Of a stretch of 48,902 bases of DNA, positions 2 to 9,018 are shown in pieces. The stretch's first letter is position 1. Each line of letters starts with the position of its first letter. The notes under the pieces are model-generated. The model did no database searches and was not told the DNA's origin. It was given only the letters and a program-made list of their open reading frames with translations. The stretch comes from Oscillospiraceae bacterium. GTDB taxonomy: Bacteria > Bacillota > Clostridia > Oscillospirales > Oscillospiraceae. The position numbers and the translations under genes are program-made. The stretch spans positions 1-48,902 of the forward strand of contig JAFSEW010000067.1 in the NCBI GenBank assembly GCA_017435525.1, written 5' to 3'.

Positions 2-1804
2 TGCACCGCAAAGGGCTACACTACTTACACCTGCTCCGCTTGTGGCGACAGCTATGTAGCTGATGAAACCGATATGGTTGACCACACTCCCGCAGAAGCA
101 GTGAAGGAAAACGAAAAGGCTTCCACCTGTACCGTAGCCGGCTCTTACGAGGAAGTTGTTTACTGCTCCGTATGTGACGCAGAACTGAGCCGTGAGAAGG
201 TAGAGTTGCCCCTGGCAGATCACGCTTGGACAGACGCAACCTGCGTAGCCCCCAAGACCTGCTCCGTCTGCGGTGAGACCGAAGGCGAGCCCACCGGCGA
301 GCATACCTGGACAGAGGAAAAGGTTGTTGTGACGGCTCCTACTTATGAGACTGCCGGTTACAAGACTTATACCTGTGATGTCGAGGGCTGCGGTGAGACC
401 GAGGTGGAGAACATCATGGCTGTGGAAGTTGATGGCGAACAGTACGAAATCCTGAAGGAGGCCTTGACAAAGGTTGCCGATGGTGGTACGATTACGCTGT
501 TGGCAGACTTCGACGCGGCTGAGACCATCACCATCTCCCAGACTGTCACCATCAACAAGAACGGCAAGACCGCAACCATCGCCGCCGGCGAGGGCTTCGA
601 AATTACTTCCGAGGCTAACGATGAGATCGTTGAGATTGCTGGGAAGACCGAACTCGTTTATGTTGCACAGATTGGCGATACTATGTATGCTACATTGGCT
701 GAAGCTATCGAGGTAGTAGACGCAGGCGGCACTATCAAACTTCTGGCTGATACTGACGAGGTAGTTGCTGTTGAAAAGGTTGTGATCATTGATAGAAACG
801 GCTTTGCCGCTTCAGGTCTGACTGCAACGGGTCTGTACATACTGGACAACAGCGACAGCAATTATCACAAGATCTATGCAGTGAAAATTGTTGGAACCAA
901 TGTGACGCTTGGTAATGACCTGCCCATTAACTTCTTTGTAAGTAAGGCTGATAGAGATAAGCTGGACGAGACTGGGCTTAGTGTATACATGAAGATCGTC
1001 CGCAACGACGAAAAAAATGGTGAAATTGAGCAGATTACCCAGATCGCTAACTGGGAGAAGTTTGGGAGCAAGAACTATAAAGTATCCTTCAAGGAAATTG
1101 GTTCTCCTCATATGGCGGATACTGTCTCTGTGTATGTGTATATCGACCACGCGGACAAGGACGATGAGTTGCTGAACATTGTTTACATTGATAGCATCTG
1201 CGGTTATCTGAGAAGAAACTTCGCAACCTTCGATGACTACATGAAGAGGCTTACCGTTGATCTTCTGAACTACGGAGCGGAGGCACAGAGATACTTTGAG
1301 TACAGAACAGACGACCTTGCCAATAGTGTTCTGACTGAAGAGGAGCAGAGACAGTGGGGTACCCAACAGAATTTAGACTGCACTGACAATCGTGTTATGG
1401 ATTCCCTTGTGCTGGGATCCAACATGACTCTGGGAAATGCACTGCTTTTGAACATTTTCTTCAAGGATGTAAGAGAAAGCCAGTATGAGACAATGAAGGC
1501 AGTTGTTACCTTCACCAACTACAAGGGTGAAGGTGTAGAGGTTGTGATCCCGGGCAGTAACTTCCAGAAACACAACAGTACAACCTGCAAGGTTGTAATT
1601 AATGCGGCAACGGCGCCGGACTGGAGGTCTTTGCTCACCTGCACCATCTACAAAGCAGATGGTAGTGTCCATTCAACCTGTACAGACAGCATTGAAAGCT
1701 ATATTAAGCGGAATCAAGAGACTGCCAATTTATGTGATCTTTTAAATGCAGTTGCAAAGTACGCTGAATCTGCTCGTGAGTATGTGCTGAACAAAAATAA
1801 TTAG
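2..1804 (+). CDS. Large secreted repeat protein, C-terminal 600 residues (5'-truncated by window edge)
   Basis: The reading frame is open from base 2, so the gene starts outside the window. From the N-terminal side it shows Cys-Xaa-Xaa-Cys repeats (CSACG, CSVCD, CSVCG) typical of long surface proteins of gut Clostridia. Then come two beta-helix-like repeats with a GGTI[TK]LLAD core (around residues 160-270). Finally there are two copies of a longer domain starting at about residues 299 and 473, each opening with a [TS]N[VM]TLGN motif and ending in an alpha-helical YAE/YGAEA stretch. No sortase motif or C-terminal membrane helix is present. It is probably secreted or held at the surface by an unseen N-terminal part. 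The precursor peptide at 1821 follows after only 16 bases and may share its transcript. Binding target is unknown. Confidence 0.8.
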   Translation, partial: CTAKGYTTYTCSACGDSYVADETDMVDHTPAEAVKENEKASTCTVAGSYEEVVYCSVCDAELSREKVELPLADHAWTDATCVAPKTCSVCGETEGEPTGEHTWTEEKVVVTAPTYETAGYKTYTCDVEGCGETEVENIMAVEVDGEQYEILKEALTKVADGGTITLLADFDAAETITISQTVTINKNGKTATIAAGEGFEITSEANDEIVEIAGKTELVYVAQIGDTMYATLAEAIEVVDAGGTIKLLADTDEVVAVEKVVIIDRNGFAASGLTATGLYILDNSDSNYHKIYAVKIVGTNVTLGNDLPINFFVSKADRDKLDETGLSVYMKIVRNDEKNGEIEQITQIANWEKFGSKNYKVSFKEIGSPHMADTVSVYVYIDHADKDDELLNIVYIDSICGYLRRNFATFDDYMKRLTVDLLNYGAEAQRYFEYRTDDLANSVLTEEEQRQWGTQQNLDCTDNRVMDSLVLGSNMTLGNALLLNIFFKDVRESQYETMKAVVTFTNYKGEGVEVVIPGSNFQKHNSTTCKVVINAATAPDWRSLLTCTIYKADGSVHSTCTDSIESYIKRNQETANLCDLLNAVAKYAESAREYVLNKNN

Positions 1805-1820
1805 AAAGGAGTAATCAGCA

Positions 1821-1925
1821 ATGAAGAAGTTTGAGACCCCTGAAATCAAGATCGATACTTTCTCTGTGGAAGATGTTATTACTGCATCTGAAGTAGTTTG
1901 CGATCTTGATACGCCTATCGGCTGA
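1821..1925 (+). CDS. Putative RiPP precursor peptide, 34 residues, ends in DLDTPIG
   Basis: This short gene starts with ATG eight to ten bases after an AAAGGAG ribosome site. The N-terminal part (MKKFETPEI followed by DTFSVEDVITASE) matches the leader-like pattern I know from small clostridial peptides found beside radical SAM maturases; this is memory of a pattern, not a search. The C-terminus is short: one Cys (residue 27), then DLDTPIG. The same end, with EVDTPIG, closes the next gene. In the shared D-T-P-I-G codons all four third positions after GAT differ, so the match is held at protein level. A strong hairpin follows, as expected where a precursor must be made in excess over its enzymes. 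Core residues and the modification are unknown. Confidence 0.75.
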   Translation: MKKFETPEIKIDTFSVEDVITASEVVCDLDTPIG

Positions 1926-1935
1926 TCTAAAAGTA

Positions 1936-1979
1936 TCCCCCCCGGAGGTTTACTCCGGGGGGGAATGTCCTGATTTTTT
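1936..1979 (+). terminator. Strong hairpin after precursor gene, probable terminator or attenuator
   Basis: A perfect 12-bp stem (1936-1947 with 1953-1964) closes a five-base loop. A run of six T lies ten bases further on (1974-1979). The offset T-run suggests partial rather than full termination, which would leave some read-through into the downstream genes. Confidence 0.65.
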
Positions 1980-2059
1980 GTGATTAGAGAAGTGTCTTTG
2001 CTAAGGATGTTGCTCTAAGCACAGAAATATCCATCTGAAGACAAAAGGTGATTAACAAA

Positions 2060-2434
2060 ATGAAGAAAAAATACATACTGGGAGTGTTGCTGATTCTGGT
2101 GATTCTGTTGGTGTTTGGGCTAATCTTCTGCTGGTATTGCGAGAGTTGCAGAGACACTAAAGAGAAACAGGAATCTCCTATGTTGGATACATCTGTCACC
2201 GAGAAACTTTCAGCAACGGAAGATTCCGAAGAGAACGATATCCCGGATGTGATCGAAACAATTTTTGCGGATACGGAATCTGAGGGAACTGAGAGTATTG
2301 AGACAAAACCTGAAGATACAGACGCTCCTGAAACAAAACCTCTCGCGACGGAGCCTCCTGCGACAGATTCCCTAGCTACCGATCCCCCTGAGGATGATGT
2401 CTTTATGGGTGAGGTTGATACACCCATAGGGTAA
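2060..2434 (+). CDS. Membrane-anchored low-complexity protein carrying the C-terminal EVDTPIG tag
   Basis: I chose ATG 2060 (124 residues) because AAAGG ends 11 bases upstream; a GTG at 2048 is in frame but overlaps that site. Residues 5-25 form one hydrophobic helix preceded by lysines, so the N-terminus is inside. The rest is outside: an acidic, Thr/Pro/Glu-rich, presumably unstructured stretch with ETKP, ATEPPATD and similar units. The last seven residues, EVDTPIG, repeat the end of the 34-residue peptide although the two proteins are otherwise unrelated. The likely reading is a tethered substrate of the same modification machinery, with the extracytoplasmic stalk displaying the modified tail. 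I do not recognise the family. Confidence 0.7.
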   Translation: MKKKYILGVLLILVILLVFGLIFCWYCESCRDTKEKQESPMLDTSVTEKLSATEDSEENDIPDVIETIFADTESEGTESIETKPEDTDAPETKPLATEPPATDSLATDPPEDDVFMGEVDTPIG

Positions 2435-2445
2435 ATACTAAGAAG

Positions 2446-2475
2446 AATCCCGGTTCTGAAAACAGAACCGGGATT
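2446..2475. other. Perfect 12-bp hairpin between tagged protein and radical SAM gene
   Basis: 2446-2457 pairs perfectly with 2464-2475 around a six-base loop. No T-run follows on either strand, so it is more likely an mRNA-stability or processing element than an efficient terminator. It separates the two substrate genes from the enzyme genes. Confidence 0.55.
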
Positions 2476-2617
2476 AAGAAACCAGCGACGAAAATAAAGC
2501 GACCGTGAAAATGAAATCAGCGATAACAATGAAATAAACAGAGATTTTCAACAAGATAATACACATAACTGGATTAGCTTGTAAATTAGTAAGACATAGG
2601 TCGCGGAGGTAGTGAAG

Positions 2618-3973
2618 ATGCAAGTAATATCCGGAGCAAATGAATCAATAGGAAAGATTCTTGCCAATTTTCAAAATTCCCAAGAGGTAGCACGCTTGAT
2701 ACACTTCTCTGTTGAACAATCTACAGAAAGTGGACACATTCTATACAATACATTGACCCGGGAAATGGTATTACTAATGGAAGAAGAATGGAAGAACCGC
2801 TTTGAGAATGACTACTTAAAAAAACACTGGTTTACTGTTCCGGGAGATTGTAAAGACAATGAGTATGTTGACCTTGTTACTTGGGTTCTCAAGTACCGAG
2901 AAAAAGAGCCGAAGGACATCACAGGCTACACCATTTTTACCACTACCGACTGCAATGCACGTTGCTTCTATTGCTTTGAATTGGGTCGTTCCCGTATTCC
3001 CATGACTGAGGAAACTGCCCATAAGGTGGCGAACTATATTGCGGGTCATTGTGGTGGAGAGAAAGTGAAACTCAATTGGTTTGGCGGGGAACCGCTCTTT
3101 AATAAGCCAGCCATTGATATTATCTGCAAAGACCTTGAGGAAAAAGGAATCGAGTACAAGTCCAGTATGATTTCCAACGGTTATCTCTTTGATATGGAGA
3201 CTGTAAAAACTGCTGTGGAGAAATGGAATCTGAAGCGGGTACAGATCACCCTGGACGGCACTGAGACTGTCTATAACAAGGTCAAGGCCTATATTTATAA
3301 GCAGGGCAGCCCGTATCAGAAAGTGATGGAGAATATAGGCCATCTGCTGGATGCGGGAGTGTCCGTAAGTATCCGGCTGAACATGGATATGCACAACGCG
3401 GAGAATCTGTTGGAACTGGTGGAAGACCTGGCAGAACGCTTCCGGGAAAAGAAGGGGCTGACAGTTTACGCGCATCACCTGTTTAAGGGAAACGAGCCCA
3501 TGGCAGACCTCCACTCTTACGAAGAATGGGAAAAGCGAGATGCGGCAATGATCCGGCTGGAAGAGAAGATTGCCTCCTGCGGTTTGGCATCCAGGGGCGG
3601 CATTTCCAAGAAGCCCAAGACAAATTTCTGTATGGCTGATAGCGGAAAGTCTGTAACAATTCTTCCTAACGGCGAAATTGGCCTGTGTGAACACTTCAGT
3701 GAGAGTGAATTTATCGGCCATATTGACCGGGAAGGCTTTGACCAGGCGGTGGTAGATAGCTGGAAGGAACGAGTTCCTGAGATTCCGGAGTGCGCAGAGT
3801 GCTTCTACTATCCCCAGTGCATGCAACTGAAGAAGTGTGCCAGCGGCAGTGTTTGCTTTGAACATCTGCGCCGGGAGCGCCGCCGCCAGGTGGAACGACA
3901 GATGCTGAACGAATACAACATGTGGAAGAACCGGGAGACAGCAGAACCGGCAGAGGAAGATGCCACCTGCTGA
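2618..3973 (+). CDS. Radical SAM/SPASM peptide-modifying enzyme
   Basis: The 451-residue product has the radical SAM cluster motif C112-NAR-C116-FY-C119 that binds the SAM-ligating 4Fe-4S cluster, and a WFGGEPL motif about 40 residues later. The C-terminal SPASM/twitch-like region has Cys 338 and 357 and a cluster at 392, 395, 401, 407 and 412, typical of enzymes with auxiliary clusters acting on ribosomal peptides. The first 100 residues could include a peptide-recognition domain. GGAGGT lies seven bases before ATG 2618; GTG 2612 is less favoured. Its neighbours (tagged substrates, PqqD protein, protease, exporter) support peptide maturation. The chemistry (thioether, C-C link, epimerisation) cannot be read from sequence. 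Confidence 0.9.
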   Translation: MQVISGANESIGKILANFQNSQEVARLIHFSVEQSTESGHILYNTLTREMVLLMEEEWKNRFENDYLKKHWFTVPGDCKDNEYVDLVTWVLKYREKEPKDITGYTIFTTTDCNARCFYCFELGRSRIPMTEETAHKVANYIAGHCGGEKVKLNWFGGEPLFNKPAIDIICKDLEEKGIEYKSSMISNGYLFDMETVKTAVEKWNLKRVQITLDGTETVYNKVKAYIYKQGSPYQKVMENIGHLLDAGVSVSIRLNMDMHNAENLLELVEDLAERFREKKGLTVYAHHLFKGNEPMADLHSYEEWEKRDAAMIRLEEKIASCGLASRGGISKKPKTNFCMADSGKSVTILPNGEIGLCEHFSESEFIGHIDREGFDQAVVDSWKERVPEIPECAECFYYPQCMQLKKCASGSVCFEHLRRERRRQVERQMLNEYNMWKNRETAEPAEEDATC

Positions 3974-3986
3974 AGGAAAGGAAGCC

Positions 3987-4736
3987 ATGACTGATTTTGT
4001 CATTACAATAGCAGGAAAAACCGCAAAGGCCAGCACACTTTATGAAAGTACCCGGGATTATTGCAGGGGGTATCTTTGCGCGGAGCTGCCGGAATTCTCT
4101 GTGCAGGTGCTGCCGGAAGATCTTATTCTCGAGAGAGAAAAAAGTGACCGGGAGGATATTGTGGAGGGACGGACCTCTCAGCGGCATTCGGATGCCTATC
4201 TGGAAACCATAGCCTTGCAGCGTAAGGTTGTGGAAGAATTTTTTGCCTATGACACGCTGCTGTTTCATGGAAGTGTTGTGGCTGTGGATGGGCAGGCGTA
4301 TCTGTTTACGGCGAAGAGCGGAACCGGTAAGTCTACCCACACCCGGCTTTGGCGGGAGATGCTGGGGGACCGGGCTGTGATGGTCAATGACGACAAGCCG
4401 TTTTTGGAGATCAAGCCGGAGGGCGTAACGGCCTGGGGCTCTCCCTGGATGGGAAAGCACAGGCTGGGCGCCAATATCGGCGTTCCGCTGAAGGCGATCT
4501 GCATCCTGGAGCGTGGAGAAGAGAACCGGATTTCCCCCATCAGTGCACAAGAGGCGCTGCCGATGCTGATGCAGCAGAGCCAGCGTCCCCAGAAAGCGCA
4601 GAATTATCCCAAATACTTGGAACTGATCGATAAACTGGCCGGGAAAGTGGCGTTCTACCGGATGGCCTGCAATATGGACCCCCAGGCAGCTGAGATGGCT
4701 TACCGGGCTATGTCCGGGGAACAGACAGTGAAATAA
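3987..4736 (+). CDS. HPr-kinase-like / PqqD-associated kinase
   Basis: This 249-residue protein has a P-loop SGTGKST (residues 111-117) and then VNDDKP and WGSPWMGK motifs, the layout of HPr kinase/PEP-carboxykinase-like proteins that occur in RiPP loci. In the lasso peptide paeninodin pathway a homologue phosphorylates the precursor; here the target is unknown. Thr in the DTPIG tail is one possibility, which is inference. True HprK is longer and regulates carbon metabolism, so this is not hprK. ATG 3987 follows GGAAAGGAA; ATG 3960 would overlap the upstream gene without a good ribosome site. It lies 13 bases after the radical SAM gene. Confidence 0.8.
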   Translation: MTDFVITIAGKTAKASTLYESTRDYCRGYLCAELPEFSVQVLPEDLILEREKSDREDIVEGRTSQRHSDAYLETIALQRKVVEEFFAYDTLLFHGSVVAVDGQAYLFTAKSGTGKSTHTRLWREMLGDRAVMVNDDKPFLEIKPEGVTAWGSPWMGKHRLGANIGVPLKAICILERGEENRISPISAQEALPMLMQQSQRPQKAQNYPKYLELIDKLAGKVAFYRMACNMDPQAAEMAYRAMSGEQTVK

Positions 4737-4765
4737 AAAACGAGCGATGTTTCGCTCGTTTTTTT
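4735..4765 (+). terminator. Rho-independent terminator after HPr-kinase-like gene
   Basis: The six-bp core CGAGCG/CGCTCG (4741-4746, 4753-4758) is extended by A/T pairs, with a six-base loop and a T-run to 4765. It ends the first transcription unit of the locus. Confidence 0.85.
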
Positions 4766-4787
4766 GCTTGTATTTTCTATCTTTTTC

Positions 4788-4816
4788 GTGACTTTTGCGC
4801 ATAATTGTGATACTAT
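4788..4816 (+). promoter_or_regulatory. Probable promoter for PqqD-protease-ABC unit
   Basis: GTGACT (4788-4793), a 17-base spacer and TACTAT (4811-4816), with TG one base before the -10 (extended -10). It lies between a terminator and the PqqD-like gene, so the second half of the locus can be expressed separately. Confidence 0.55.
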
Positions 4817-4855
4817 AAACAAGTTATAGAAAATTACTACCAAAGGAGCAGATAT

Positions 4856-5119
4856 ATGAAACTGAAAGACGGATTTATCCTGCGGGAAGTGGCAGGTCAG
4901 ACTGTGGTGCTGCCGGTGGGCGGCGATCTGGATCTGAATATGATGATCACCCTGAACGAAACCGGCGCTTTCCTGTGGAAGCAGCTGGAAAATGAAAACG
5001 ACGAAGCAGGCCTGGTGGCCGCGCTGCTGGCAGAATACGATGTGGACGAAGCAACTGCCAAGAACGCCGTAGAAGGCTTCGTAGCAAAGCTGAACGAAAA
5101 TGGATTCCTTGCAAACTAA
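4856..5119 (+). CDS. PqqD-like RiPP recognition element protein
   Basis: An 87-residue stand-alone PqqD-family protein (LNETGAFLWKQLE, then the DVDEATAKNAVEGFVAKL helix and ENGFL end). Such domains bind the leader of a precursor peptide and present it to the radical SAM enzyme. Length fits the family. AAAGGAG lies about eight bases before ATG. The last 20 bases overlap the protease gene, indicating coupled translation. With the maturase upstream this is the strongest sign that the locus handles a ribosomal peptide. Confidence 0.85.
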   Translation: MKLKDGFILREVAGQTVVLPVGGDLDLNMMITLNETGAFLWKQLENENDEAGLVAALLAEYDVDEATAKNAVEGFVAKLNENGFLAN

Positions 5120-5561
5120 AGAATTCCCTCTGGAACAACTGATGCCCTTAATAAAGGAGTGTCTTGCAGCAGGTCGTTCCGTACGATTTTCGCCGAAAGG
5201 TACCAGTATGCTGCCGATGATTCGCCAGGGAATCGACAAAGTGGTGCTCTCTCCGTTGCCGGATAAGCTGAAAAAGTTTGATTTACCGCTGTATCAGCGG
5301 AAAAATGGGCAGTATGTACTTCATCGTATTATAAAGATCGAAGATACCTACACCTGCATTGGTGATAATCAGTTTGAACTGGAGCATGGGCTGCAGCACG
5401 ATCAAATGATTGGAGTGGTATCTGCGTTTACCCGTGGAGATATGGAGCACAGTGTAAAAGAGCCTGGATACTGGCTATACTGCCGCCTGTGGCATTACAG
5501 CAGACCTGTGCGTAAATTTTGGCGTAGATGCGTTGGCTGGCTCCGGAGACATATAGCATGA
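5100..5561 (+). CDS. S24/S26-like peptidase, possible leader or tag protease
   Basis: 153 residues. A PKGTSMLPMI motif carries the presumed catalytic Ser of the signal-peptidase fold, and VLHRI supplies His where bacterial signal peptidase I has Lys, as in the ER/SipW-like branch. IGDNQ matches the usual third box. The N-terminus lacks a clear membrane anchor; the C-terminus is basic and aromatic (WLYCRLWHYSRP). It begins inside the PqqD gene and its stop overlaps the ABC transporter start (ATGA at 5558-5561). The likely job is trimming the modified peptide or tagged protein; this is inferred from location. Confidence 0.75.
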   Translation: MDSLQTKEFPLEQLMPLIKECLAAGRSVRFSPKGTSMLPMIRQGIDKVVLSPLPDKLKKFDLPLYQRKNGQYVLHRIIKIEDTYTCIGDNQFELEHGLQHDQMIGVVSAFTRGDMEHSVKEPGYWLYCRLWHYSRPVRKFWRRCVGWLRRHIA

Positions 5562-7222
5562 AAAAGATTACCTTGATTTGGATCTTGCGGCAGGTTCGCC
5601 GGAGGATTCCAGCGATTCTGGCCCTGACCCTGGCGCAGGTGGGACAGGCGCTGTTTTCTGTGTTTTTTGCCCTGAGCACCCGGGGCGTCATTGACAGCGC
5701 CATTGGGGGGCAGCCCAGGATGTTTTGGCTGGCCTGCCTGAAGCAGTGCGCCATTATCGGCGTGATTTTGCTGTGCCAGCTGCTTACCAGACATTTGCAT
5801 GAGCGCCTTTCCGCAGACCTGGAAAAGGACTGGAAGCGGCGGCTGCTCCACGGCCTTCTCCATGGAGATTACGCAGCCGTATCCCAATACCACAGCGCCG
5901 AACTGCTGAACCGGCTGAATAACGATGTGGCCAGAGTCAATACGGGCGTGCTGTCCATTTTCCCCAATGCAGCTGCCATGGTTACCAAGCTGATCGCCGC
6001 CGTGGTGGTGCTGGGGGTGCTGGATGGCCGGTTTACCCTGGTCATTGCCGCCATTGGCATTGTGGTGCTGCTTGCCACTGCTCTGATGCGCCGTCGGCTG
6101 AAAGATCTGAACAAGCAGGTCAGCACCCACGATGGCAGGGTCTCCGGATTTTTGCAGGAGGCTATGGAAAAGCTGCTGATGGTGCAGGCCATGGGCGTGT
6201 CCCGGGAGATGGAAAACCGGGCGGACATTTTGCTGGAGGACCGTTACCGCATCCAGCGGAAAAAGAAAAACATATCGCTGCTGGCCAATACCTGCATCAG
6301 TGTTATGTATTACGGTGCCGGTTTCCTGGCACTTTGCTGGTGCGCCTGGCAGCTGCTGAACGGACGGATGAGCTTCGGCTCTTTGACGGCGGTGACGCAG
6401 CTGGTGAGCCAGCTGCAGGCACCTTTTGTGAATCTGTCCGGCGTGATGCCCCAGTATATTTCCATGATCGCCTCCGGGGAGCGTTTGATGGAATTGGAGT
6501 CCATTCAGGGGCAGCCGGAGCCTATGGAAGCTGACCGGGATGCGGTGTACGCGTCCATGGAATGCCTGCGGGCGGAGCAGCTGAGCTTCTCCTATGACCG
6601 GGAGCGGGTTCTGGAAAATGCGGAATTCTCCCTGCCCAAGGGGGCTTTCGCAGTGATTACCGGCCCCTCCGGTATCGGAAAAAGCACACTGCTGAAGCTG
6701 GTGCTGGGTGTTTTCCGGCCGGAAAGCGGCGGACTTTACCTGCAGAATCGGGAAGAAAAGCTGCGGCTGGACCGCAGTACCCGGCAGTTGTTTGCCTATG
6801 TTCCCCAGGGAAACCTGCTGCTCAGCGGCACACTGCGGGAGAATTTGACCATTGTAAAACCCCAGGCCACGGAGGAAGAAATCCGGCAGGCGGTGTATGT
6901 CAGCTGCATGGAGGAATATCTGCCGCAGCTGCCCATGGGTCTGGATACGGTGCTGGGCGAAAGCGGCGCCGGTCTTTCGGAGGGGCAGGCACAGCGCTTG
7001 GCCATTGGCCGTGCGGTGCTGGGCGGCGCGCCCATTTTGCTGCTGGATGAGTGTACCTCTGCCCTGGATGCCCTGACGGAGCAGAAGGTTCTGCAGCGGC
7101 TCCGGGCCCTGCCGAACCGCACCTGTATTGCCGTGACCCACCGGGAGGCGGCGATCGCCCTGTGTGACTGGCGGCTGCAGGTAGGCGGCGGCAAGATCCA
7201 CGCCATTCCCAATGAAGAATAA
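5558..7222 (+). CDS. ABC transporter, fused permease-ATPase (peptide exporter type)
   Basis: A 554-residue half-transporter: an N-terminal domain with several membrane helices (about residues 10-310), then an ATPase with Walker A GPSGIGKST (369-377), signature LSEGQ (473-477), Walker B ILLLDE and H-loop VTHRE. Two copies would form the exporter. No C39 peptidase domain is present, so cleavage would rest with the preceding S26-like protein. ATG 5558 shares ATGA with the upstream stop; the earlier ATG 5528 is less likely. It is the last gene of the peptide locus. Confidence 0.85.
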   Translation: MKKITLIWILRQVRRRIPAILALTLAQVGQALFSVFFALSTRGVIDSAIGGQPRMFWLACLKQCAIIGVILLCQLLTRHLHERLSADLEKDWKRRLLHGLLHGDYAAVSQYHSAELLNRLNNDVARVNTGVLSIFPNAAAMVTKLIAAVVVLGVLDGRFTLVIAAIGIVVLLATALMRRRLKDLNKQVSTHDGRVSGFLQEAMEKLLMVQAMGVSREMENRADILLEDRYRIQRKKKNISLLANTCISVMYYGAGFLALCWCAWQLLNGRMSFGSLTAVTQLVSQLQAPFVNLSGVMPQYISMIASGERLMELESIQGQPEPMEADRDAVYASMECLRAEQLSFSYDRERVLENAEFSLPKGAFAVITGPSGIGKSTLLKLVLGVFRPESGGLYLQNREEKLRLDRSTRQLFAYVPQGNLLLSGTLRENLTIVKPQATEEEIRQAVYVSCMEEYLPQLPMGLDTVLGESGAGLSEGQAQRLAIGRAVLGGAPILLLDECTSALDALTEQKVLQRLRALPNRTCIAVTHREAAIALCDWRLQVGGGKIHAIPNEE

Positions 7223-7225
7223 AAC

Positions 7226-7260
7226 AAAGAGCCTTTGCCCCTTTGGGCAAAGGCTCTTTT
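7226..7260 (+). terminator. Rho-independent terminator after ABC exporter
   Basis: A perfect 15-bp stem (7226-7240 with 7245-7259) has a CTTT loop and ends in a T-run. It closes the peptide-modification locus. Confidence 0.9.
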
Positions 7261-7302
7261 GCTGCAACGCGCGGTCTGCTGCATGTTTTGGCGGCCTGGC
7301 AT

Positions 7303-7331
7303 TATGATGTATTACAGTGCAGAACATCATA
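7303..7331. repeat. Inverted repeat upstream of serine recombinase
   Basis: TATGATGT (7303-7310) and ACATCATA (7324-7331) form a perfect 8-bp inverted repeat with a 13-base gap, just before the ribosome site of the recombinase. It could be an operator or part of an attachment site. Confidence 0.45.
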
Positions 7332-7347
7332 GGCGGAGGCTGTGAAC

Positions 7348-9018
7348 ATGAAACAAAATGGGCAAATCGTTGCTGTTTACTCCCGGAAATCCCGGTTTAC
7401 CGGGAAAGGAGAAAGCATTGGCAATCAGGTGGAGATGTGCAGGGAATATATCCGCAGCCATTTCGGGGAACCGGCTGCCCACAGCTGCACGGTGTTTGAG
7501 GACGAAGGCTTTTCCGGGGGAAATTTGAAGCGTCCGGCCTTTCAGCGGATGCTGGAAGGGGTTCGCCGGGGGGAGTTCCGGGCGGTGGTGGTGTACCGGC
7601 TGGACAGAGTCAGCCGCAACATCAGTGATTTTGCGTCTCTTGTGGAAGAACTGGGCAGGCTGAATGTGGCGTTTATCTCCATCCGGGAGCAATTTGACAC
7701 CGGCAGTCCCATGGGACGGGCCATGATGTATATCATTTCCGTGTTTTCCCAGCTGGAACGGGAAACCATCGCGGAGCGCATCCGGGATAATATGCACGAA
7801 CTGGCAAAGACGGGCCGCTGGCTTGGGGGCAATACCCCCACGGGTTACACTTCGGAAAGCGTCAGCTATATGACGCTGGACGGAAAGACCCGGAAACTAT
7901 GCCGCCTGAAGCTGCTGCCGGAGGAGGCAGAAACGGTGAAAACCATTTTTGATCTGTATAGCCGGAAAAATTCTCTGACAGCTGTGGAGACGGAACTGCT
8001 GCAAAGACAACTGAAAACAAAGCGGGGGAAGGATTTCACCCGGTTCGGGATAAAGGGGATTCTGGAAAATCCGGTGTATATGGTGGCGGATACCGGGGCC
8101 CTGGAATATTTCCGCAGCCGGGGCGTGACGGTGTATGCGCCGCCGGATGCTTTTGACGGCAAGCGGGGGATTATGGCCTATAACCGGACAGACCAGGAAA
8201 AGGGCAGCGCTGCCGTGTGCCTTCCTATGGAGGAATGGATCGTGTCCGTAGGGCAGCATCCGGGGCTGATTGCTTCGGCGCAGTGGATTCAGGTGCAGGA
8301 AGCCCTGGCCAGAAACGGGTCCTCCGCTTACCGCAGTCCCCGTAAAAATGGCGCGCTGCTGACAGGACTGCTGTTTTGCGGCTGCGGAAGCCGCATGTAT
8401 CCGAAGCTGACCGGCTCGTCACAGAATTCCGGCATACCGAACCATACCTATGTCTGCAAGCGGAAGGAACGCACCCGGAAAGCGGATTGCAGCTGCCCCA
8501 ATGCTTCAGGCAGCGCTTTGGATGGAGCGGTTTGGGGAGAAATCCAAAAGCTGCGTCCCCATGCCCCCACCCTGGTAAAGCAGCTGGAGAAAAGCAGACA
8601 CCTGTGCAGCGAGGCTGCCCAGGGCTGGGAAAGCCAATGCCAAAGACTGGGAGAAGCGTTGGAGGGAAACGAGAAAAAGCTGGAAAGCCTGCTGGATGCC
8701 ATCAGCCTGCCCCAGACCCCGGAGACGAAGCAGCGGATTGCCCGGCGGATGGAAGAATTGGAGCAAGCCAACGGACAGCTGCACCGGCGTATCGCCGCGC
8801 TACGGAAAATGCTTGCCGCCTGCAGGCTTAGTCCGGAAGAATGGGAAACCTTGCGGGGCACCCTGACGGCATTTGACCGGTGCGCGGCAAAGATGCCGGT
8901 GGAGGAGAAACGGCAGACCTTGCGCTTAGCGGTGCAGAAAGTGATATGGGACGGCAGCAGCGCCACGCTGGTGCTGGCAGGCGCCCGGATGACCGGTAAA
9001 AATGCGGATAAAATGTAG
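7348..9018 (+). CDS. Large serine recombinase (site-specific integrase/resolvase)
   Basis: 556 residues. The N-terminal resolvase domain shows YSRKS (catalytic Ser 15 by position), YRLDRVSRN and the SQLERETIAERIRDN helix. It is followed by a recombinase domain (GNTPTGY onward), a zinc ribbon (FCGCGS...YVCKRK...CSCPN, near residues 350-390) and a C-terminal coiled coil. This is the full layout of large serine recombinases of phages, integrative elements and the sigK skin element. ATG 7348 follows GGCGGAGG; a GTG at 7342 is in frame. No cargo or second att site is evident nearby. The pilus operon follows under its own promoter. Confidence 0.85.
   Translation: MKQNGQIVAVYSRKSRFTGKGESIGNQVEMCREYIRSHFGEPAAHSCTVFEDEGFSGGNLKRPAFQRMLEGVRRGEFRAVVVYRLDRVSRNISDFASLVEELGRLNVAFISIREQFDTGSPMGRAMMYIISVFSQLERETIAERIRDNMHELAKTGRWLGGNTPTGYTSESVSYMTLDGKTRKLCRLKLLPEEAETVKTIFDLYSRKNSLTAVETELLQRQLKTKRGKDFTRFGIKGILENPVYMVADTGALEYFRSRGVTVYAPPDAFDGKRGIMAYNRTDQEKGSAAVCLPMEEWIVSVGQHPGLIASAQWIQVQEALARNGSSAYRSPRKNGALLTGLLFCGCGSRMYPKLTGSSQNSGIPNHTYVCKRKERTRKADCSCPNASGSALDGAVWGEIQKLRPHAPTLVKQLEKSRHLCSEAAQGWESQCQRLGEALEGNEKKLESLLDAISLPQTPETKQRIARRMEELEQANGQLHRRIAALRKMLAACRLSPEEWETLRGTLTAFDRCAAKMPVEEKRQTLRLAVQKVIWDGSSATLVLAGARMTGKNADKM

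Follow-up and report, generated by a model that had tools for sequence, protein, structure and literature searches.

Maturation enzymes that find their substrates through a C-terminal motif have been described for ribosomally synthesized and post-translationally modified peptides (RiPPs). In the available part of a 2025 preprint on DAG-RiPPs and the ChrH/DybH subfamily of multinuclear non-heme iron-dependent oxidative (MNIO) enzymes, the maturase recognizes a C-terminal CPxCxMG motif (PMC12636315). The substrates that bear it, namely secreted peptides, lipoproteins and proteins over 30 kDa (one being a 34-kDa protein), are otherwise unrelated; the motif is sufficient when carried by the green fluorescent protein, and the speed of modification allows it to compete with the export of lipoproteins (PMC12636315). 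Here, we describe a locus centered on a radical S-adenosylmethionine (SAM)/SPASM enzyme in contig JAFSEW010000067.1 of an Oscillospiraceae bacterium (the whole stretch of 48,902 nucleotides is hereafter called the window), where a leader-type peptide and a surface-anchored protein both end in DTPIG. As for the ChrH-type substrates, the tail is common to unrelated proteins, its recognition being here putative. The systems differ in that an MNIO enzyme and a Cys-based CPxCxMG motif are found there, and a radical SAM enzyme (rSAM) and DTPIG here. Moreover, the pairing of a leader peptide with an anchored protein, whose tails change together from locus to locus, is not described in the available part of the preprint. 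A sequence-only reading of the window, made without database searches, knew of no described pathway of this kind; this was too strong, given that MNIO enzymes recognize a C-terminal motif on varied substrates. No MNIO was among the matches listed for the nine window proteins scanned (positions 74-9018), and no account of an rSAM paired with an anchored protein that shares a tail was found in the literature searched.

As in the ranthipeptide and sactipeptide systems, to the extent that the sources at hand describe them, the rSAM/SPASM gene of the window lies beside that of a leader-bearing peptide, which has one Cys near an Asp. PapB links Cys to Asp or Glu, according to the accessible part of its description (PMC9413430). 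Unlike the ranthipeptide and sactipeptide systems, the window has a second, anchored protein with the common tail, and no named maturase equivalog is among the best 25 of the 52 NCBIfam matches of its rSAM, all of which are under their cut-offs (top match TIGR04463, 132 versus 525 bits). A further difference from Cys linkage, as far as the PapB text at hand goes, is that Cys is absent from the second peptide of one related locus (G1150) and from the anchored tails. Bufferin precursors carry Sec or lipoprotein signal peptides, and some are predicted to be membrane-anchored; in the available part of that work they are MNIO-modified Cys proteins in which a signal peptide replaces the leader, with no tail-sharing partner described (PMC12452194). 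Lasso peptides, in the excerpt available, can be phosphorylated at a C-terminal serine (PMC10368454). Neither a lasso cyclase of the asparagine-synthetase type nor a transglutaminase-type protease was among the matches listed for the nine window proteins.

A Peptide and an Anchored Protein With the Same Tail

Both open reading frames (ORFs) of interest, together with their neighbors, were recovered where the sequence-only reading had placed them (Table 1). The peptide, MKKFETPEIKIDTFSVEDVITASEVVCDLDTPIG, has 34 residues; its leader resembles those found in other loci. The anchored protein, of 124 residues, starts at ATG 2060, initiation at GTG 2048 giving 128 residues instead, and its C-terminus is FMGEVDTPIG. 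In both proteins, an acidic and an aliphatic residue precede DTPIG. The codons of the five residues are GAT ACG CCT ATC GGC in one gene and GAT ACA CCC ATA GGG in the other, only that of D being the same. The earlier observation that the T, P, I, and G codons all differ is therefore correct, and the identity of the tails is kept at the protein level, not at the DNA level. In the 2,060,931-base assembly (77.19% complete), a degenerate DNA pattern for DTPIG followed by a stop codon, GAYACNCCNATHGGNTRR, matches twice, each time at this locus; the reversed control has no match. Gene starts and small ORFs were called with a simple purpose-made gene finder.

Motif-Tailed Anchored Proteins in Related Loci

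Homologues of the window rSAM are rare. They were found in 3 of 60 relatives, 8 of 394 in the order and 8 of 400 in the family (own genome counted), in 4 of 398 in the family of G313, in 6 of 161 and 1 of 22 in two further families, and in 5 of 32, 5 of 64, 2 of 6 and 1 of 18 in four genera. These sets overlap and were sampled with E-value limits from 1e-30 to 1e-60; for the two further families and the two smallest genus sets (2/6 and 1/18), other rSAMs of the set served as queries. Searches of plasmids and phages gave one and two distant matches, respectively, and a single-protein search of genome contigs gave two weak relatives (L022, L023), which lie outside the count that follows.

In total, 28 distinct bacterial loci were examined, window included, several being cut by contig ends or resembling orphan rSAM genes. 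An anchored protein is present in 14 and a leader peptide in 18; 11 have both and seven have neither (G027, G526, G514, G678, G1176, G1210, G1309). Anchored protein without peptide is the situation in G148, where the contig begins at the rSAM gene, in G1083, where the anchored gene is 2.5 kb off on the opposite strand, and in G1299; peptide without anchored protein is that of G022, G425, G1085, G390, G1169, G1205 and G1341. A mechanical scan missed the anchored proteins of G107, G1299 and G1330, which were found in gene lists, so that the total of 14 depends in part on visual inspection.

All 14 anchored proteins have an N-terminal hydrophobic segment, and 11 (ten plus G1223) passed a scan for a low-complexity remainder. 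Judged by eye, the anchor is a transmembrane segment in four cases (window, G313, G1150, G1299) and a lipoprotein-like signal in eight; S-layer homology (SLH) domains are found in the proteins of G1330 (89.7 bits) and G107 (24.5 bits, for a cut-off of 20.8). Their C-termini are GEVDTPIG, VIELPIITV, EIELPEIPLF, ENELPDDDLN, ENELSIDWFN, THELPIDLFD, THELPIDIF, EFELPLIPG, EFELPPDYLN, GIELPEIEI, ENETSIIWFG, TTELPIIPG, GIELPVIPLR and QWETPDL. A [DE][LTI][PST] motif lies within the last 12 residues of every one of them, as compared with 206 of 1,556 windows taken from the linkers. Peptides with this motif occur in seven of the 11 loci having an anchored protein and in none of the seven without (Fisher p = 0.013). 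In answer to the check proposed by the sequence-only reading, a motif-tailed anchored protein does recur (14 of 28 loci) and has a tail near-identical to that of the local peptide in four of 11 loci, but DTPIG itself does not recur; DTPxG-like ends were absent from the first 11 homologous loci fetched.

Near the rSAM genes of G425 and G1085, similar 175-residue membrane proteins ending in DITL were also observed (L016 7686-8213 and L036 6135-6662).

Tails Match Within Four Loci

The four matched loci have DTPIG (window), IELPII (G313), ELPI plus PG, that is ELPIxPG (G1150), and WETPDL (G1330) at the ends of both proteins. G313 has a second peptide that ends in NELPVIKD, and in G1150 it is the second peptide that matches the anchored tail, the first one not matching. 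In G078, G1223 and G1140, peptide and anchored protein have only the motif class in common. When each anchored tail was compared with the 11 peptide sets, the peptide of its own locus ranked 1st in the four matched loci, 2nd in G078, 4th in G1140 and 5th in G1223 and G657. Re-pairing of peptides and anchored proteins across the 11 loci reached the observed score at a frequency of 0.0003, with p between 0.00002 and 0.0006 over six settings (five tail lengths, and the mean in place of the best peptide). If G1223 and any one matched locus are left out, p is 0.001-0.004 (0.003 when the window is dropped); a first version of the test, with nine loci, one of them with a truncated anchored sequence, had given 0.003.

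On the rSAM tree, the matched loci do not form sister rows, although the window and G313 fall in one six-row clade. Over the four loci, 15 of the 22 degenerate matched positions have different codons in the two genes (4 of 5 in the window, 6 of 6 in G1150); in G313, four of the six IELPII codons are identical between the two genes. Hence, of the proposal that one machinery serves both substrates, the sharing of a tail stands, as it recurs in three other loci and exceeds re-paired controls, but the tail is not universal.

The two leader peptides of G1150 (L045 5796-5924 and 7378-7506) are unlike each other, one having a Cys core without the common tail and the other being Cys-free with the anchored tail. 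This suggests that there are two peptide types per system.

As for a general sorting signal, this role of the tail was considered and rejected: ELPIxPG followed by a stop was found in one of 300 family genomes, antisense inside another predicted gene. The rejection covers ELPIxPG only, a narrow pattern that misses most of the tails found.

The rSAM Is the Common Maturation Gene

In the stretches examined, the rSAM gene is the sole maturation gene common to the four matched loci. The sequence-only reading had taken the PqqD, HPrK-like, S26-like and ABC genes of the window as a joint maturation set. They are indeed present there, but no PqqD, HPrK, S26 or ABC exporter gene was seen in the stretches examined of G1150 and G1330; in G1330, 284 bases of contig lie upstream of the peptide, and an importer-like ABC operon was recognized by eye. 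Since these genes are inconstant in matched loci, any single machinery acting on both proteins is more likely the rSAM. In a 10-row rSAM clade (support 100/99), every row has an anchored protein. One locus, G1299, has a surface protein, an anchored protein and the rSAM in this order, with no peptide recognized.

The window rSAM has ten cysteines (C114, C118, C121, C340, C359, C394, C397, C403, C409, C415) that are invariant in 24 aligned homologues. Its Pfam Radical_SAM match is above the cut-off and that to SPASM below (15.9 versus 21.5 bits); by sequence, the solved relative is 5wgg. With radical SAM and SPASM cysteines, an adjacent leader-bearing precursor and a PqqD protein, the locus has the features by which rSAM/SPASM RiPP systems are broadly defined.

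Viral Relatives of the rSAM

A first scan of viral sequences gave no match; the search with profile A1 gave 36 viral loci, of which 21 were examined. Among their 170 genes coding for at least 150 residues, 11 have at least seven Cys in the last 50 residues, and ten of these 11 directly precede the rSAM gene (L067-L069, L071, L073-L076, L081, L082; 7-9 Cys). A like pattern is seen in L079 and L080, in upstream reading frames outside the gene count. These ten cases are not independent, L073/L074 and L081/L082 being near relatives. For five viral loci, PHROGs was searched with the upstream proteins. In L069 and L070 these match tail and minor head families, the one of L069 following a distal tail protein. 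The best match of the L067 protein is an unknown family, its weak matches being structural; the L068 protein matches an unknown family only, and that of L085 mainly unknown ones. This gene context suggests that other enzymes of the rSAM lineage act on the C-termini of large proteins, and the viral ones may decorate phage structural proteins. Nothing relevant on phage rSAM enzymes with structural proteins was found in the literature searched.

Neighboring Genes of the Window

Table 1. Features of the window locus, with positions numbered from the first nucleotide of the window.
Feature	Position	Strand	Remarks
Surface protein	74-1804	+	Cut by contig start; C-terminal region alignable with upstream proteins elsewhere
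Precursor peptide	1821-1925	+	Leader-type, 34 residues, one Cys, tail CDLDTPIG
Peptide DTPIG codons and stop	1908-1925	+	
Hairpin between peptide and anchored genes	1936-1964	.	-29.5 kcal/mol, z -3.8
Anchored protein	2060-2434	+	124 residues; N-terminal hydrophobic segment, low-complexity linker, tail GEVDTPIG
Anchored-protein DTPIG codons and stop	2417-2434	+	
Perfect inverted repeat 3' of anchored gene	2446-2475	.	-22.5 kcal/mol, z -7.5
Radical SAM/SPASM enzyme	2612-3973	+	CxxxCxxC plus seven cysteines in the C-terminal half
HPrK/ScmC-like protein	3987-4736	+	Walker A by eye (SGTGKST); ScmC 39.6 bits, cut-off 125
Terminator-like hairpin	4735-4764	+	-15.2 kcal/mol
PqqD domain protein	4856-5119	+	PF05402, 71.6 bits, cut-off 23.4
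S26-like protein	5100-5561	+	Weak profile match, 19.6 bits, cut-off 51.85; no Pfam match
ABC exporter-type protein	5558-7222	+	Permease and ATPase; ORF open from ATG 5528

The C-terminal region of the surface protein aligns with the upstream protein of nine other loci, with 16-24% identity and 10 invariant columns. In the S26-like protein, the GTSMLP, LHR and GDN motifs noted by eye are taken by us as a possible Ser/His/Asp triad. Sequence searches of solved structures gave no match for this protein or for the HPrK-like one. HPrK-like, PqqD and ABC genes also occur in paeninodin-type lasso clusters. A nucleotidyltransferase of the PF14907 type is known from lasso clusters as well, and such genes were observed in three loci related to the window (L020, L015, L044); L021 has an ATP-grasp gene (PF14397). 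Tail phosphorylation by the HPrK-type protein, considered in view of the C-terminal serine phosphorylation of lasso peptides, was rejected as a general role, ends such as ELPIIPG and ELPEIEI having no Ser or Thr.

The anchored gene is flanked by two very stable hairpins, which set it apart from the peptide and rSAM genes. This arrangement possibly serves differential expression, or the processing of one transcript. Promoter-like sites show no excess in the window (6, versus a mean of 4.7 in shuffles). Directly 3' of the ABC gene lies a large serine recombinase (7342-9018). This neighbor suggests that the cluster may be mobile, which would agree with the rSAM being rare.

Discussion

We propose that this radical SAM/SPASM locus directs peptide maturation and yields two kinds of product. 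The leader peptide would be modified, cleaved and exported, and the surface-anchored protein would display the C-terminal tail of the peptide at the end of a flexible linker. The core of the tail (an acidic residue, then Leu, Thr or Ile, then Pro, Ser or Thr) would be what the rSAM recognizes or alters. With the tail as its target, enzyme, peptide and anchored tail would be expected to change together; the enzyme would encounter the anchored protein, which is without a leader, by way of its tail and ahead of Sec export. The role of the PqqD, S26-like and ABC proteins would lie mainly with the free peptide. Recognition by the rSAM of the C-terminal tails of both substrates is the reading that we rank first, with a probability of roughly 0.4, followed by that of a tethered mimic and then by that of a docking tag.

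Several observations weigh against this preferred reading. The [DE][LTI][PST] motif was defined post hoc from the observed ends, and the link between motif-bearing peptides and anchored proteins weakens to p = 0.034 with each group of sister loci merged into one, and to 0.10 with the 175-residue membrane proteins of G425 and G1085 counted as anchored. No clear tail match is seen in four of the 11 loci (G370, G107, G579, G657), the own peptide ranking only 8th in G579 and 9th in G370 and G107; the sequence-only reading had itself named unlike tails in homologous loci as evidence that would count against it, and such tails are what these four loci have. Without the four matched loci, the re-pairing p is 0.25, and the claim of within-locus matching therefore rests on these four. 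In the sister pair G078/G1223, the anchored tail is kept while the peptide tail drifts. Apart from G313, the rSAMs closest to that of the window belong to loci where no anchored protein was found: G022 (61%; near a contig end), G1341 (53%; examined over 18 kb) and G1309 (51%). Among the viral loci, the association with Cys-rich ends is absent from the other nine of the 21. The anchored tails have neither a Cys nor any one obvious modifiable residue. An internal leader in the anchored linkers was rejected as a general feature, a leader-like motif falling below p = 0.05 in two of 14 proteins, G1150 (p = 0.002) and G1083 (p = 0.026), with a profile built from 17 of 20 peptides. As the linkers hold no leader-like motif beyond chance, recognition would need the tail. 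Finally, modification has to be assumed to precede export; the competition of MNIO modification with lipoprotein export, as reported in the available part of the preprint, answers this objection in principle (PMC12636315).

The alternative closest in rank, which we consider somewhat unlikely, is that only the peptide is modified and that the anchored copy of its tail is a mimic, acting as a decoy, in self-protection, or as a ligand for the receptor of the peptide. An anchor, a long flexible linker and a short terminal tail are the anatomy of display, the anchored proteins have no leader and their tails no Cys, and the motif tail is kept while the anchor varies (transmembrane, lipoprotein-like, SLH). 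A mimic would also account for the matching within loci. It fits poorly with G1299, where an anchored protein accompanies the rSAM with no recognized peptide to copy, and with the four loci in which the anchored tail is unlike that of the local peptide. It is less probable still that both tails are ligands of a third surface partner, for instance the upstream surface protein, and no target of the enzyme. An alignable upstream protein is present in ten loci, window included, and in the eight loci searched no other likely gene encodes the tail strings; a similar string, DLPII, occurs in one further protein of G1083. On the other hand, co-location with a surface protein says nothing about binding, the upstream proteins are just 16-24% identical to that of the window, and a cleaved peptide with an identical tail would compete for the site.

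Local copying, by which one tail would derive from the 3' end of the other gene, in either direction and with no present function, appears quite improbable. Each of the four matched loci has the two genes side by side, and the codon identities in the IELPII stretch of G313 would fit, but the differences at most degenerate matched positions do not, and several independent copying events followed by conservation at the protein level would be needed. Chance similarity, picked out from many ORFs, is strongly disfavored: although the tails are short and the window was selected for its match, the re-pairing test still gives p = 0.003 when the window and G1223 are left out, and nowhere else in the assembly does the DTPIG-stop pattern occur.

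Beyond tail recognition by the rSAM at this locus, we advance only tentatively, and regard as doubtful, a wider reading in which this rSAM/SPASM lineage would mark the C-termini of three kinds of substrate (free peptides, surface proteins anchored by membrane, lipid or SLH, and large phage structural proteins), would not be guided only by leaders, and would use a tail code specific to each locus. Should the anchored protein be a mimic, modified peptides would have a self-recognition or immunity device of a new kind. Should the rSAM act on both tails, radical SAM enzymes would join the MNIO enzymes in recognizing substrates by a C-terminal motif, protein engineering would gain a short tag, and there would be a natural route to a non-standard chemical group at the free end of a surface protein.

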